Assembly (NCBI GenBank): GCA_903643055.1
Contig: CAHJWV010000030.1
Coordinates: 1-22,023, forward strand
Source of the DNA: Burkholderiales bacterium
GTDB taxonomy: Bacteria > Pseudomonadota > Gammaproteobacteria > Burkholderiales > Burkholderiaceae
Length of the DNA stretch: 22,023 bases
Direction: 5' to 3'
This document shows positions 4,488-18,138 of the stretch, in pieces. Below the pieces are notes generated by a model, which had not been told where the DNA came from, did not search any database, and was given only the letters and a program-made list of their open reading frames with translations. A program made the position numbers and the translations under genes. Positions within the stretch are counted from its first letter, which is position 1; the number at the start of each line of letters is the position of its first letter.

Positions 4488-4552
4488 ATGCCGCTTTGTA
4501 TGTCGCTTGCTGCTGCCTGCTCGGCAGGCTTGCACGCCATCCGATAACCGCT

Positions 4553-4583
4553 TTGCAGCCTCGCTACCGATGGTGGCTATACT
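4553..4583 (+). promoter_or_regulatory. Putative sigma70 promoter for the manganese riboswitch transcript
   Basis: A -35-like TTGCAG (4553-4558) and a -10 TATACT (4578-4583) are separated by 19 bp, which is slightly long. The predicted start near 4590 would place the riboswitch aptamer at the very 5' end of the transcript, as expected. Confidence 0.45.
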
Positions 4584-4593
4584 CGCGCCCCGC

Positions 4594-4704
4594 ACTCGTC
4601 ATTGGGGAGTAGCCGCCCTGCTTCAGCAGGGGTTCGCGTCAACAGACTTGGTCCTCATGACCATGGTGCGAACAGCTCCTAGCCTGGCCAGACCTTTGAC
4701 TGCG
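4594..4704 (+). ncRNA. yybP-ykoY manganese riboswitch
   Basis: The conserved 5' block TTGGGGAGTAGCC (4602-4614) and 3' block GGCCAGACCTTTGAC (4686-4700) match this class as I know it from proteobacterial alx, mntP and UPF0016 leaders. P1 can close by GTCA (4598-4601) with TGAC (4697-4700). Two internal hairpins are perfect: CCCTGC/GCAGGG with loop TTCA (4616-4631) and TGGTC/GACCA (4649-4663). It lies directly upstream of a GDT1-type gene with no T-run terminator between aptamer and start codon, so control is probably translational: Mn2+ binding would free the ribosome site around 4757-4761. Confidence 0.92.
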
Positions 4705-4767
4705 CAGCATCCGGATTCACGAGCCGCGGGTGCCGCGTGGTCTTTGGTATTCGGCTCTGGAGTTCTC

Positions 4768-5346
4768 ATGGAAGCATTTCTCGTCTCCACCGGTGTTGTG
4801 GCTCTGGGTGAAATGGGCGACAAGACCCAATTGCTTGCGATGCTGCTGGCCACGCGCTTCAAGCGTCCGATCCCTATCGTTCTAGGCATCCTTACCGCGA
4901 CGCTGGTCAATCATGCGGCCGCAGGTGCTGCCGGCAGTTGGGTTGCATCAACGTTGGGGCCAGAGGTTTTGCGCTGGGTGATCGGCCTCTCGTTCATCGC
5001 GATGGCGGGTTGGATGCTGATCCCCGACAAGCTGGATGCAGACGAATCGCAAACCTCGCACCTCGGCGTTTTTGCGACGACCACCATCACCTTCTTCCTA
5101 GCCGAGATGGGCGATAAAACCCAACTGGCCACCGTCGCGCTGGCAGCGCGCTACGACGACCTGGTCGCCGTCGTGGCTGGCACCACGTGCGGCATGTTGA
5201 TCGCTGATGTGCCTGCCGTGTTTGTTGGCGACAAGATGGCCAAGAAGCTGTCGATGCGCTGGGTTCATGGCATTGCGGCCGCCATCTTTGCCGCATTGGG
5301 CGTACTGACCTTGCTCAGCGGCAACCGGCTGTTTCAGCTGGCCTGA
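4768..5346 (+). CDS. GDT1/TMEM165/UPF0016 family manganese exporter
   Basis: This 192-aa inner-membrane protein belongs to the GDT1 (UPF0016) family of Mn2+/Ca2+ transporters; bacterial members export manganese. It has the internal duplication of the family, each half carrying the cation-binding motif E-x-G-D-K-T: EMGDKT at residues 15-20 and again at 113-118. About six membrane segments are predicted, with a hydrophilic linker around DKLDADESQTS (87-97). The start at 4768 (MEAFLVS) has TGGAG six bases upstream and the family's usual N-terminus; a longer in-frame reading from 4507 would translate the riboswitch and is rejected. The yybP-ykoY aptamer ahead predicts induction by excess manganese. 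It ends before a bidirectional terminator at 5456-5484, so it is monocistronic. Confidence 0.93.
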   Translation: MEAFLVSTGVVALGEMGDKTQLLAMLLATRFKRPIPIVLGILTATLVNHAAAGAAGSWVASTLGPEVLRWVIGLSFIAMAGWMLIPDKLDADESQTSHLGVFATTTITFFLAEMGDKTQLATVALAARYDDLVAVVAGTTCGMLIADVPAVFVGDKMAKKLSMRWVHGIAAAIFAALGVLTLLSGNRLFQLA

Positions 5347-7960: not shown

Positions 7961-8029
7961 GCCACTGTGTCAGTGGCGACCCTCTTGGGGGTTTGGCCGT
8001 CATTGCTGACGGCCGCGCTGAAATCAGCG
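7961..8029 (-). other. Three perfect hairpins in the rpoA-rplQ spacer
   Basis: In mRNA order: CGCTGA/TCAGCG (8016-8029) spans the rpoA stop codon; GGCCGTCA/TGACGGCC (7995-8014) has a 4-nt loop; GCCACTG/CAGTGGC (7961-7977) has a 3-nt loop. None carries a T run. Together they fill about half of a 133-bp spacer. They may mark an RNA processing or stability boundary that sets rplQ versus rpoA output. Confidence 0.6.
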
Positions 8030-9010
8030 TTTGTCGAGGCCTTGAGGAGGCCAGTTCTCAAGACGCGCGCCAAGCGTAAGCCCGCGGGACGCCAAAACTT
8101 CCTTGATCTCGTTGAGCGACTTGCGACCCAGATTGGGCGTCTTCAGCAATTCGGTCTCAGTTCGTTGGATCAGGTCGCCAATGTAATAGATATTTTCGGC
8201 CTTCAAGCAGTTGGCCGAACGCACGGTCAACTCGAGTTCGTCGACCGGGCGCAACAAGATCGGATCGAACTGCGTGCTGCGTTGAGCCGGTTGATCGAAG
8301 GCGGCGATTTCACTGCCTTCCAACTGTGCAAACACCGCAAGCTGCTCGACAAGAATCTTGGCGGATGCACGAATCGCTTCTTCTGGCGTGATGGCACCAT
8401 TCGTTGCAATCTCCATCACCAGCTTATCGAGGTCGGTACGCTGTTCCACACGCGCCGATTCGACGGTGTAGCTCACGCGTGACACCGGAGAGAACGACGC
8501 ATCGAGAACAATGCGGCCAATCGACTTGGTCGGCTCGTCGCCATAACGGCGCATCGTACCGGGCACATAGCCGCGGCCCTTTTCAACCTTGATCTGCATG
8601 TCCAACTTGCCGCCTTGCGACAAATGGGCAATGACGTGATCCGGATTGATGATCTCGACGTCGTGGGGCGTCTGGATATCGCCGGCAGTCACGGGGCCTT
8701 CGCCTTCCTTGCGCAGAACGAGAGTGACCTCGTCGCGGTTGTGAAGGCGGAAAACAACGCCCTTGAGGTTCAACATGATGTGAACCACGTCTTCCTGCAC
8801 GCCATCGACGGTCGAATACTCATGGAGCACGCCAGCGATGGTGACCTCGGTCGGCGCATATCCCACCATCGAAGACAGCAGAACACGACGCAACGCGTTG
8901 CCGAGGGTATGGCCATAACCACGCTCGAACGGCTCGAGGGTCACCTTGGCGCGGTTGCCGCCCAGCGGCTCCACATTGATGGCTTTGGGTTTGAGCAGGT
9001 TTGTTTGCAT
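8024..9010 (-). CDS. rpoA: DNA-directed RNA polymerase subunit alpha
   Basis: This 328-aa protein is the alpha subunit, which dimerises to nucleate RNA polymerase assembly and contacts activators and UP elements. The N-terminal domain holds [19 protein letters not shown] (residues 29-47), the dimer and beta-contact region. The C-terminal domain holds [12 protein letters not shown] then [12 protein letters not shown] and ENWPPQGL, including the arginine used for UP-element DNA binding. Length and both domains are normal. It lies 147 bp after rpsD, a longer gap than is usual inside this cluster, and 133 bp before rplQ; both gaps contain hairpins. Only a weak purine-rich GAAAGA precedes the ATG. 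Confidence 0.99.
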
Positions 9011-9157: not shown

Positions 9158-9781
9158 TCAGCGCGAATACAGTTCGACGATCAAGGCTTCCTTGATATCG
9201 GCACCGAACTCATCGCGGTCCGGGGTCTTCTTAAAGACGCCTTCGAGCTTAGATGCATCGACCTGCACCCAGTTGGGCATGCCTTGCGATTCAGCCAATT
9301 TCACTGCGTCAACAATGCGCAACTGCTTCTTGGACTTCTCGCGAACACCAACCAAATCACCGGCCTTCACCAAGTAAGACGCAATGTTGACGACTGCGCC
9401 ATTGACGGTAATGGCTTTGTGGGAAACCAACTGCCGACCTTCAGCGCGGGTCGAGCCGAAGCCCATGCGATAGACGACGTTGTCGAGGCGCGATTCGAGC
9501 AGCGACAGCAGGTTGGCGCCGGTGTTGCCTTTGCGACGCTCAGCTTCGGCAAAGTAACGGCGGAACTGACGCTCCAGAATGCCGTACATGCGCTTGACCT
9601 TTTGCTTCTCACGCAATTGCAGACCAAAGTCAGAAGTGCGCGAACCAGAGGTACGGCCGTGTTGCCCTGGCTTGCTGTCGAACTTGACCTTGTCACCGAT
9701 CGGGCGGCGAGCGCTCTTCAGGAACAGATCGGTGCCTTCGCGGCGGGCAAGCTTGCCCTTGGGTCCTAGATAACGTGCCAC
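9158..9781 (-). CDS. rpsD: 30S ribosomal protein S4
   Basis: This 207-aa protein is S4, a primary 16S rRNA binder that nucleates 30S assembly and, in other bacteria, represses its own operon by binding mRNA. It starts with GTG (MARYLGPKG) preceded by AAAGGA. The zinc-binding cysteines of some S4 proteins are absent, so it is the C-minus form. An S4-type RNA-binding domain covers about residues 96-160 ([23 protein letters not shown]). The 180-bp spacer before it is the longest within the alpha-operon part and can form a pseudoknot (9880-9930), a plausible target for S4 itself. Confidence 0.98.
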
Positions 9782-9879
9782 GTGATTTCCTTTATCAATT
9801 TAACGAGCGCCGACATCAAATCAGCACGCGCAAGTCTGGCGAGTCTTGTTTTAAGTGCTCAGACGGTGGGCTTATGAAA

Positions 9880-9930
9880 CCTCACGGCTTCAACGGAACC
9901 GCCGGCAAGCTCCGTGAGGCGCTTGCCGGC
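9880..9930 (-). promoter_or_regulatory. Putative H-type RNA pseudoknot upstream of rpsD
   Basis: In transcript sense, GCCGGCAAGC (9930-9921) pairs perfectly with GCTTGCCGGC (9910-9901) around the loop GCCTCACGGA. Eight loop bases, CCTCACGG (9919-9912), are perfectly complementary to CCGTGAGG (9887-9880), 13 nt after the stem. Stem 1 of 10 bp, stem 2 of 8 bp, single-nucleotide joints on both sides of the loop strand and a 13-nt crossing loop fit H-type geometry. Stem 2 could alternatively replace stem 1. The element ends about 100 nt before the rpsD start. No T run follows, so it is not a terminator. Confidence 0.6.
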
Positions 9931-9961
9931 GATGACTAGCAATCAATGCAAGAAAAGCAAA

Positions 9962-10363
9962 TCAGATGCGGCGACGCTTCTGTGGACGGCAACCGTTGTG
10001 CGGGACGGGTGTCACGTCGGCAATCGAATTGATTCGAATGCCAAGTGATGCCAATGCGCGAACCGACGATTCACGACCAGGGCCTGGGCCCTTGATCCGA
10101 ACGTCCAAATTCTTGATGCCTTGCTCTTGTGCAGCACGACCAGCCACTTCAGCAGCCACCTGAGCAGCAAAAGGGGTCGATTTACGCGAACCCTTGAAGC
10201 CTTGACCACCACTGGATGCCCAAGAGAGCGCTCCGCCTTGACGGTCGGTGATCGTGATGATCGTGTTATTGAACGACGCATGAACGTGAGCAATGCCATC
10301 CGCAACGTTCTTGCGGACTTTCTTTCGCACGCGCTGTGCAGCGGTATTGGGTGCTTTAGCCAT
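9962..10363 (-). CDS. rpsK: 30S ribosomal protein S11
   Basis: This 133-aa protein is S11 of the 30S platform, near the E site and mRNA exit. Conserved blocks are [18 protein letters not shown] (residues 26-43), [16 protein letters not shown] (49-64) and the basic C-terminal [17 protein letters not shown] precedes the ATG. It lies 47 bp after rpsM and 180 bp before rpsD. Confidence 0.98.
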
Positions 10364-10410: not shown

Positions 10411-10776
10411 TCACTTCTTGACCAGAGCGCCAGACTTGCGCGGTCCCTTACGGGTCCGAGCATTCGTTTTTGTGCGCTGACCACGAACGGGCAAGCCACG
10501 ACGATGGCGGAAGCCACGATAGCAACCCAAGTCCATCAGACGCTTGATGTTGATCGACATCTCGCGGCGCAAATCGCCTTCGATGGTCATGCGACCGATC
10601 TCTTCGCGAATCTTTTCCAGATCCGTATCAGTTAGGTCTTTGATCTTTCGATCAAAAGGTACCCCGCTGGCCGTGCAGATCTTTTGCGCCGTGGTGCGGC
10701 CGATCCCATAGATCGCCGTCAGACCAATTTCTGCGTGCTTCTGGGGGGGAATATTGATACCAGCAATACGAGCCAT
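10411..10776 (-). CDS. rpsM: 30S ribosomal protein S13
   Basis: This 121-aa protein is S13 of the 30S head, which contacts P-site tRNA and the L5 bridge. It starts [11 protein letters not shown], has the helix-two-turn-helix block [12 protein letters not shown] (24-35) and ends with the basic tail [17 protein letters not shown] lies upstream of the ATG. Only 35 bp separate it from rpmJ, so the alpha-operon leader pseudoknot found before rpsM in enterobacteria has no room here. Confidence 0.98.
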
Positions 10777-17644: not shown

Positions 17645-17938
17645 TCAGACCGCGATGGCCTTCTCAACCAACCGCGTCACCACCCAAGATTTGGTCTTGG
17701 AGATCGGACGGCTTTCGGCGATTTCTACAACATCACCCAGCTTGTATTCGCCCTTTTCATCATGAGCGTGGTACTTGCTCGAACGGGCAACGATCTTGCC
17801 GTAAAGCTCATGCTTTGTACGACGCTCAACGAGCACTGTAATGGTCTTCGAGCGCTTATCGCTAACCACTTTTCCGACCAAGGTGCGCGTGTTCTTCAGT
17901 GGAGCCTGTACCACTGCGTCTACGTTTTGAGTCGTCAT
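17645..17938 (-). CDS. rpsQ: 30S ribosomal protein S17
   Basis: This 97-aa protein is S17, an early 16S rRNA binder with an OB-fold. Conserved parts are [20 protein letters not shown] (split: [18 protein letters not shown]) and [20 protein letters not shown]. The first ~15 residues ([15 protein letters not shown]) extend the E. coli form, as in other betaproteobacteria. The start overlaps the rpmC stop by ATGA. It is the last gene of the S10 set before the terminator at 17560-17597. Confidence 0.98.
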
Positions 17939-18138
17939 TTCGCGGCTCCTTCTTTCTTCTTCTGCGCCAGGATGGTCTTGGCACGAGCAATGTCGCGACG
18001 GGTGTTGCCCAACGTGGTGTGGTTGGTCAACTGCTGAGTCGCCTTTTGCATACGCAAGCCGAAATGGGCCTTGAGCAAATCAGCCACTTCCTTTTCGAGG
18101 CCAGCGACGTCTTTGGCTCGGAGTTCAGATGCTTTCAT
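17935..18138 (-). CDS. rpmC: 50S ribosomal protein L29
   Basis: This 67-aa protein is L29, located at the exit tunnel near L23 and a docking site for SRP and trigger factor. The start at 18138 ([10 protein letters not shown]) has GGAG six bases upstream; a reading to 18183 is rejected. The long helical pair with [16 protein letters not shown] and [11 protein letters not shown] is typical. It overlaps rpsQ by four bases, indicating translational coupling. Confidence 0.97.

Follow-up and report, generated by a model that had tools for sequence, protein, structure and literature searches.

A candidate autogenous leader for ribosomal protein S4 directly upstream of rpsD in Burkholderiales

The window analysed here, a stretch of 22,023 nt from a Burkholderiales bacterium (contig CAHJWV010000030.1, positions 1 to 22,023), carries on its minus strand, in the order of transcription, rpmJ, rpsM (10411-10776), which is the operon gene upstream of rpsK, then rpsK itself (9962..10363; ribosomal protein S11, PF00411), a spacer, rpsD (9158..9781; ribosomal protein S4, PF00163 and PF01479) and, as the next gene, rpoA (8024-9010). 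With rpsK ending at 9962 and rpsD starting with a GTG codon at 9781, the spacer measures 180 nt, and rpmJ and rpsM are separated by 35 nt, as a preliminary description of the locus had stated. All comparisons were made between the window and the genomes of relatives; judged by S4, the closest named relatives are Rhizobacter and Piscinibacter, and the most similar S4 among the genomes searched (96% identical) was encoded at locus L081. The spacer directly before rpsD had been described as structured, and it indeed folded more strongly than its shuffled copies (z -3.58; 0 of 200 shuffles as good) and proved to hold a conserved RNA. A consensus scan of window positions 9700-10100 returned no promoter- or terminator-like sites; attenuation inside the leader was discarded, as the window spacer carries no terminator-like site.

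The conserved rpsD leader element, a candidate S4 r-leader delimited with the covariance model R1 and by conservation in the family, occupies positions 9779..9873 of the minus strand and includes the GTG start. It is composed, from 5' to 3', of AAGnCCACYG, helix P1, a CU-linker, helix P2, a Shine-Dalgarno sequence and the start codon. In the window copy, the CCAC (9866..9869) of the anchor AAGCCCACCG would provide the 5' strand of a proposed closing helix, P0, by pairing with the start codon. P1 is formed by GUCUG (9860..9864) and CAGAC (9834..9838), whereas P2 comprises GCGCGUG (9825..9831) and a 3' strand at 9803..9809 that has one C-U mismatch in this copy; these strands were assigned from RNAalifold, covariation and the alignment A1, the last one also from R1. 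The Shine-Dalgarno-like AAGGA of rpsD (9788..9792), recognised from its sequence, lies inside the proposed junction, and the GUG together with the first G of codon 2 (9778..9781) would make up the 3' strand of P0, as placed by the alignment and the start-codon counts. The element occurs in a Rhizobacter-like flavour (AAGCCCACCGTCTGAGCG...CGCCAGACTCGCG...CGCGTCAGATTGA..AAGGA) and an Acidovorax-like flavour (AAGCCCACCGCC...GGCTCCCGC...GCGGTAGATGACA..AAGGA), which have the anchor, P1, the CU-linker, P2, the Shine-Dalgarno sequence and the GTG in common. The anchor was matched in 186 of 191 family spacers, a set that includes duplicates (177 distinct), some genomes having entered by two routes; the match in L194 was spurious. 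The five spacers without a match (L024, L035, L171, L177 and L208) and L194 all have P1 and P2 by eye: L035 and L171 were missed because their start was mis-parsed, L177 and L208 are devoid of the CCAC, and L024 and L194 are devoid of the AAG. L168 and L169 yielded no spacer, and the scan of spacer lengths mis-parsed L118.

RNAalifold was applied to a sequence-only alignment of 195 of 203 leaders (178 distinct; L115, L120, L138, L143, L146, L149, L150 and L194 were left out) and returned both P1 and P2, together with a CAC/GUG helix that closes them. Covariation was then scored in the 170 leaders that remained after dropping those 97% alike, using a FastTree tree, substitutions placed by the Fitch method and 60 null alignments. 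The five best-scoring among 3,403 column pairs all belonged to P1 or P2, and their values were unreached in the 60 tree-based nulls, with up to 17 reconstructed double substitutions for P1 and P2 pairs. The pairs of these helices outside the top five were individually not significant, and neither was P0, which hardly varies in the 170 leaders. The alignment A1 comprised 77 of 80 selected sequences (L118, L222 and L226 were left out), drawn from 200 distinct leaders with those longer than 100 nt excluded. Its cells were paired in 90.7% of cases, compared with 71.2% in shuffles and 27-40% with slid partners, and its covariation score was 0.520, compared with 0.185 in shuffles and at most 0.131 after sliding; the structure scored on A1 had been derived with RNAalifold from an overlapping set, supplemented by inspection, and was thus favoured over its slid versions. 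The structure formed by P1 and P2 is well supported by covariation. The covariance model R1 scored 52.2 bits at 9779-9873 of the window (E 6.8e-12; model positions 1-78 of 78), the window being one of the 77 sequences from which it was built.

Searched with strict filters, under which weak matches may be missed, R1 had matches in 24 of 250 Burkholderiales genomes, one per matching genome. Twenty-two of them lie directly before rpsD (21 located by script and the 22nd by eye), and the two away from rpsD are the weakest pair (E 0.003 and 0.007). Both a conserved secondary structure backed by covariation and a consistent position directly upstream of an r-protein gene (22/24) were thus found, as in an r-leader. 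A class-wide R1 search gave matches in 3 of 229 genomes, all three members of the order, whose share of the 229 is unstated. Scanning with a sequence pattern retrieved 38 genomes out of 399 in the order, at least one of them falsely (L252, without rpsK upstream), and none with the reversed control; a looser pattern retrieved 31 of 74 genomes in one family, with one match in the reversed control (G646) and a false-looking second match in G653. In 38 of 60 order loci, taken from the 117 genomes with an rpsD match, the spacer is at most 34 nt long and leaves no room for the element, which is therefore patchy and dispensable in parts of the order. The family sample consisted of 187 genomes, of which 30 entered as loci and 80 were added. 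Other rpsD spacers of the order have motifs of their own. L148, L149 and L150 share a different-looking, probably structured spacer (TTCGTATCCTGCG...CGCAGGATAGAAGAGG) with an ATG start, possibly another type of S4 leader, and L140 and L151 share the motif TTGGCGTCGAA ... AGGG ... TTGAAC before an ATG-start rpsD. In L264, L265, L266 and L268, the CACTTCG that follows P1 is complementary to a CGAAGTG over the start codon, which suggests an alternative helix; this complement is absent in L138, L146 and L267.

The nearly invariant CCAC of the anchor could form base pairs with the GUG start codon, and in one clade the combination is CCAU and AUG. Of the 200 distinct leaders counted, 196 combine CCAC with GTG, two CCAT with ATG and two CCAT with GTG (a wobble), and none combines CCAC with ATG; these counts are not phylogenetically independent, the two CCAT leaders with ATG representing one clade, and losses are under-counted, given that the leaders were mostly chosen by patterns needing CCAC or CCAT. 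In the family that holds the CCAT and ATG pair, start codons read in 30 pattern matches comprised 28 cases of CCAC with GTG and two of CCAT with ATG. With a single compensated lineage and a single wobble lineage, the evidence that the start codon takes part in the structure is suggestive. The probability of P0 given by RNAfold was 0.002 for the window copy; over 200 leaders its median was 0.53, and it exceeded 0.5 in 106 of them. Low stability of P0 in the unliganded state would fit a switch that is closed by its ligand and would equally fit the absence of any such helix.

We consider it likely that the 95 nt up to and including the rpsD start codon act in cis as an autogenous S4 leader that represses translation when a junction closes over this codon. 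P1 and P2 would stand as hairpins within a junction that the 4-bp P0 is able to close, in which CCAC pairs with GUG and the first G of codon 2. S4 present in excess over free 16S rRNA would bind the P1/P2 junction and stabilise P0, hiding the start codon along with the Shine-Dalgarno sequence next to it; rpsD would then be translated less, and perhaps also rpoA-rplQ downstream. The element is probably a switch that balances S4 production in this bacterium and its relatives. We infer S4 as the ligand, and repression as the outcome, from the position of the gene and from precedent. The more specific proposal of a new Burkholderiales family of S4 r-leaders in which the start codon is part of the closing helix and co-evolves with it (CCAC/GUG, CCAU/AUG), so that S4 locks the start codon, comes close to an even chance. 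If it were true, the conserved GUG start of rpsD would be a consequence of the switch.

Two other readings accept the element and differ in its ligand. It may be a passive structure without a protein ligand that acts in translation initiation or mRNA stability, through start-codon accessibility, ribosome standby or a processing site. The Shine-Dalgarno sequence and the start codon do lie inside the element, which would suit such a role; yet 22 of the 24 R1 matches are confined to the rpsD start, constrained positions (AAGnCCAC, CU) stand outside the covarying helices, and S4 leaders have precedent at the same gene in other lineages (PMC7247131), so that we regard this reading as unlikely. Still less probable is that another product of the operon, such as S11, S13 or L17, is recognised in place of S4. 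The location of rpsK directly upstream and of rpoA and rplQ downstream speaks for it, whereas in other lineages the leaders of this cluster have S4 as their confirmed or proposed ligand (PMC7247131), and L17 may have a site of its own, judged by matches to the L17-Actino-Proteobacteria leader (RF03132) that four of the eight relatives searched have some 1.8 kb downstream of where rpsD starts (L009 and L027 above the cut-off, L001 and L014 below it).

The remaining two readings concern a GC hairpin upstream of the core element, at 9900..9931 of the minus strand, which was recognised from sequence and folding and has counterparts in relatives. Its stem pairs GCCGGCAAGC (9930-9921) with GCTTGCCGGC (9910-9901) across the 10-nt loop GCCTCACGGA (9920-9911) and is, as had been claimed, a perfect 10-bp helix over 9901-9930, extended to 11 bp by 9931/9900. 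The loop segment CCTCACGG (9919-9912) is, likewise as described, fully complementary over 8 nt to CCGTGAGG (9887-9880), 13 nt past the stem. When the 122 nt downstream were simply shuffled 20,000 times, a complement of at least 8 nt arose in 108 cases (0.5%); such a match is only mildly unusual, the site having been picked after reading 22 kb. From these features, the preliminary description had derived an H-type pseudoknot or a pair of alternating helices at 9880-9930 as the S4 regulatory site. RNAfold, which draws no pseudoknots, placed two local hairpins in this region, with the partner CCGTGAGG contained in a small hairpin at 9876..9891 (-), GAAGCC-GUGA-GGUUUC. The window, L081 and L098 share this small hairpin, with a loop of the GNRA type that reads GUGA or GCAA; the counterparts in L081 and L098 have GCAA loops. 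L081, the closest relative, has the same loop GCCTCACGG in the upstream hairpin, but its partner reads CCGCAAGG, with two uncompensated mismatches, and sits in the local GCAA-loop hairpin. Among 121 family spacers (111 distinct, window included), in which the loop of the best upstream hairpin plus 3 nt on each side was scanned, the longest downstream complement was 8 nt in the window, 7 nt in L249, 5 nt in L081 and 3 to 6 nt in the others; a narrower scan gave at most 6 nt and missed the 8 nt of the window itself, for which a 4-nt loop was taken and scored 4. Moreover, 64 of the 186 anchored family spacers have less than 45 nt before the conserved element, with little room for an upstream hairpin, and all of them still have the anchor downstream.

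The conservation of both helices, proposed with the pseudoknot as its check, thus holds in part for the stem, a GC hairpin recurring at the same place in many relatives, and fails for the loop helix, which is lost in L081. The pseudoknot was rejected on these grounds and looks like a local accident; that it, or the switch between helices, serves as the S4 site is very improbable, even with the perfect stem, the rarity among shuffles and the recurrent hairpin in its favour. The broader idea that S4 control was relocated to rpsD fares better, since a conserved structured RNA does lie before this gene, though at a place other than the pseudoknot. The GC hairpin may instead be a separate element that works as a leaky terminator, marks a processing site or forms the 5' end of an internal rpsD transcript, a possibility that we hold tentatively, at somewhat below an even chance, and that does not compete with the S4-leader proposal. 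At least four T within 6 nt after the best upstream hairpin were seen in 67 of 121 spacers, and a TA[TGC][AG]AT motif ahead of it in 26 of 121; these counts come from a crude automatic scan, have no chance level attached and refer to hairpins that are not all orthologous. Against this stands the window itself, which has no terminator- or promoter-like site there and whose hairpin belongs neither to the 67 nor to the 26.

Known leaders were compared with both positions in the cluster. In Escherichia coli, the alpha-operon leader (RF00140, Alpha_RBS) resembles the element in S4 feedback (proposed for the latter), in its gene cluster and in extending to the start codon of the cistron that it regulates, and differs in lying before rpsM, whereas the element lies before rpsD. 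At rpsM, RF00140 scored 24-31 bits in the window and all eight relatives, always across the rpsM start codon and under the cut-off of 38, so no match above the cut-off was obtained. The two alignments inspected, out of nine matches, rest mainly on the rpsM coding start; where the nested pseudoknot was looked for in them, 33-45 hidden model positions were matched by only 4-12 nt. Retention of an alpha-operon leader at rpsM was rejected in view of these weak scores, in line with the earlier statement that there is no room for the usual leader. At the rpsD element, RF00140 had no match in the loci searched, and the 4227 models of Rfam 15 gave none in the window and eight longer loci at permissive thresholds. 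Among 18 short loci, a few weak Rfam matches lay within or next to the spacer, to Scr1601 and ncS54 (L113), GibS and anti-hemB (L114) and eiav_FSE (L200); these unrelated families scored about 20 bits or more under their cut-offs, and the matches were taken as chance. In passages of PMC5688073, ncS54 is placed among independently transcribed sRNAs and rpsD is not mentioned.

Mimicry of rRNA was also considered. The series AAGnCCACCG...CUAACCG resembles by eye a stretch of 16S rRNA that we take to be helix 18. Local alignment of four joined anchor and linker strings to the 16S rRNA of G001 placed none of them there and was equalled by shuffles in 30, 226, 444 and 178 of 500 cases, and the idea was dropped.

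Eckert and Weinberg (PMC7247131) name leaders for S4 in Gammaproteobacteria, Firmicutes, Clostridia, Bacteroidia, Flavobacteria and Fusobacteriales. For Gammaproteobacteria and Firmicutes, whose leaders are unrelated, binding to S4 is given as confirmed, and for the other four lineages S4 is the proposed ligand; the word "Betaproteobacteria" is absent from the main text of that survey. By the same source, the leaders of Bacteroidia and Flavobacteria are likewise listed for rpsD, rpoA and rplQ and are set apart by their description, as hairpins in other lineages. Those of Firmicutes, Clostridia and Fusobacteriales share S4 as ligand (confirmed in Firmicutes, proposed in the others, inferred here), whereas the conserved rRNA-like GUAA given there for Firmicutes and Fusobacteriales occurs in only 13 of 200 leaders here and is absent from the A1 consensus, counted as sequence occurrence only, a point in which the element differs from that type. 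The L17 leader RF03132 is also an r-protein leader of this gene cluster in relatives of the window, and differs in being farther downstream, another RNA and specific for another r-protein; none was reported in the window itself. No rpsD leader in Betaproteobacteria was found in the open-licence literature searched, and passages of PMC11109978 mention neither rpsD nor betaproteobacteria. In a Bordetella pertussis mutant, rpsM, rpsK and rpsD transcripts were up and the proteins down (PMC7742992). The rpsD element is thus a candidate r-leader of what may be a new structural type for S4, apparently undescribed. If this is right, it would fill the betaproteobacterial gap in the S4 leader listing of PMC7247131, the main published one found, represent another independent solution to S4 feedback and make the start codon a structural part of a protein-sensing RNA, a model that is directly testable. 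The alignment and the covariance model can be used for annotation.

Elsewhere in the window, a second R1 match at 17936-17979 (-), with 16.5 bits and E 0.005, is probably due to chance. A yybP-ykoY manganese riboswitch (RF00080) was matched at 4592-4765 (+) with 91.9 bits, and the frame at 4507-5346 that overlaps it codes for a divalent cation/proton antiporter of the GDT1 type (PF01169), which suits such a riboswitch as a target.
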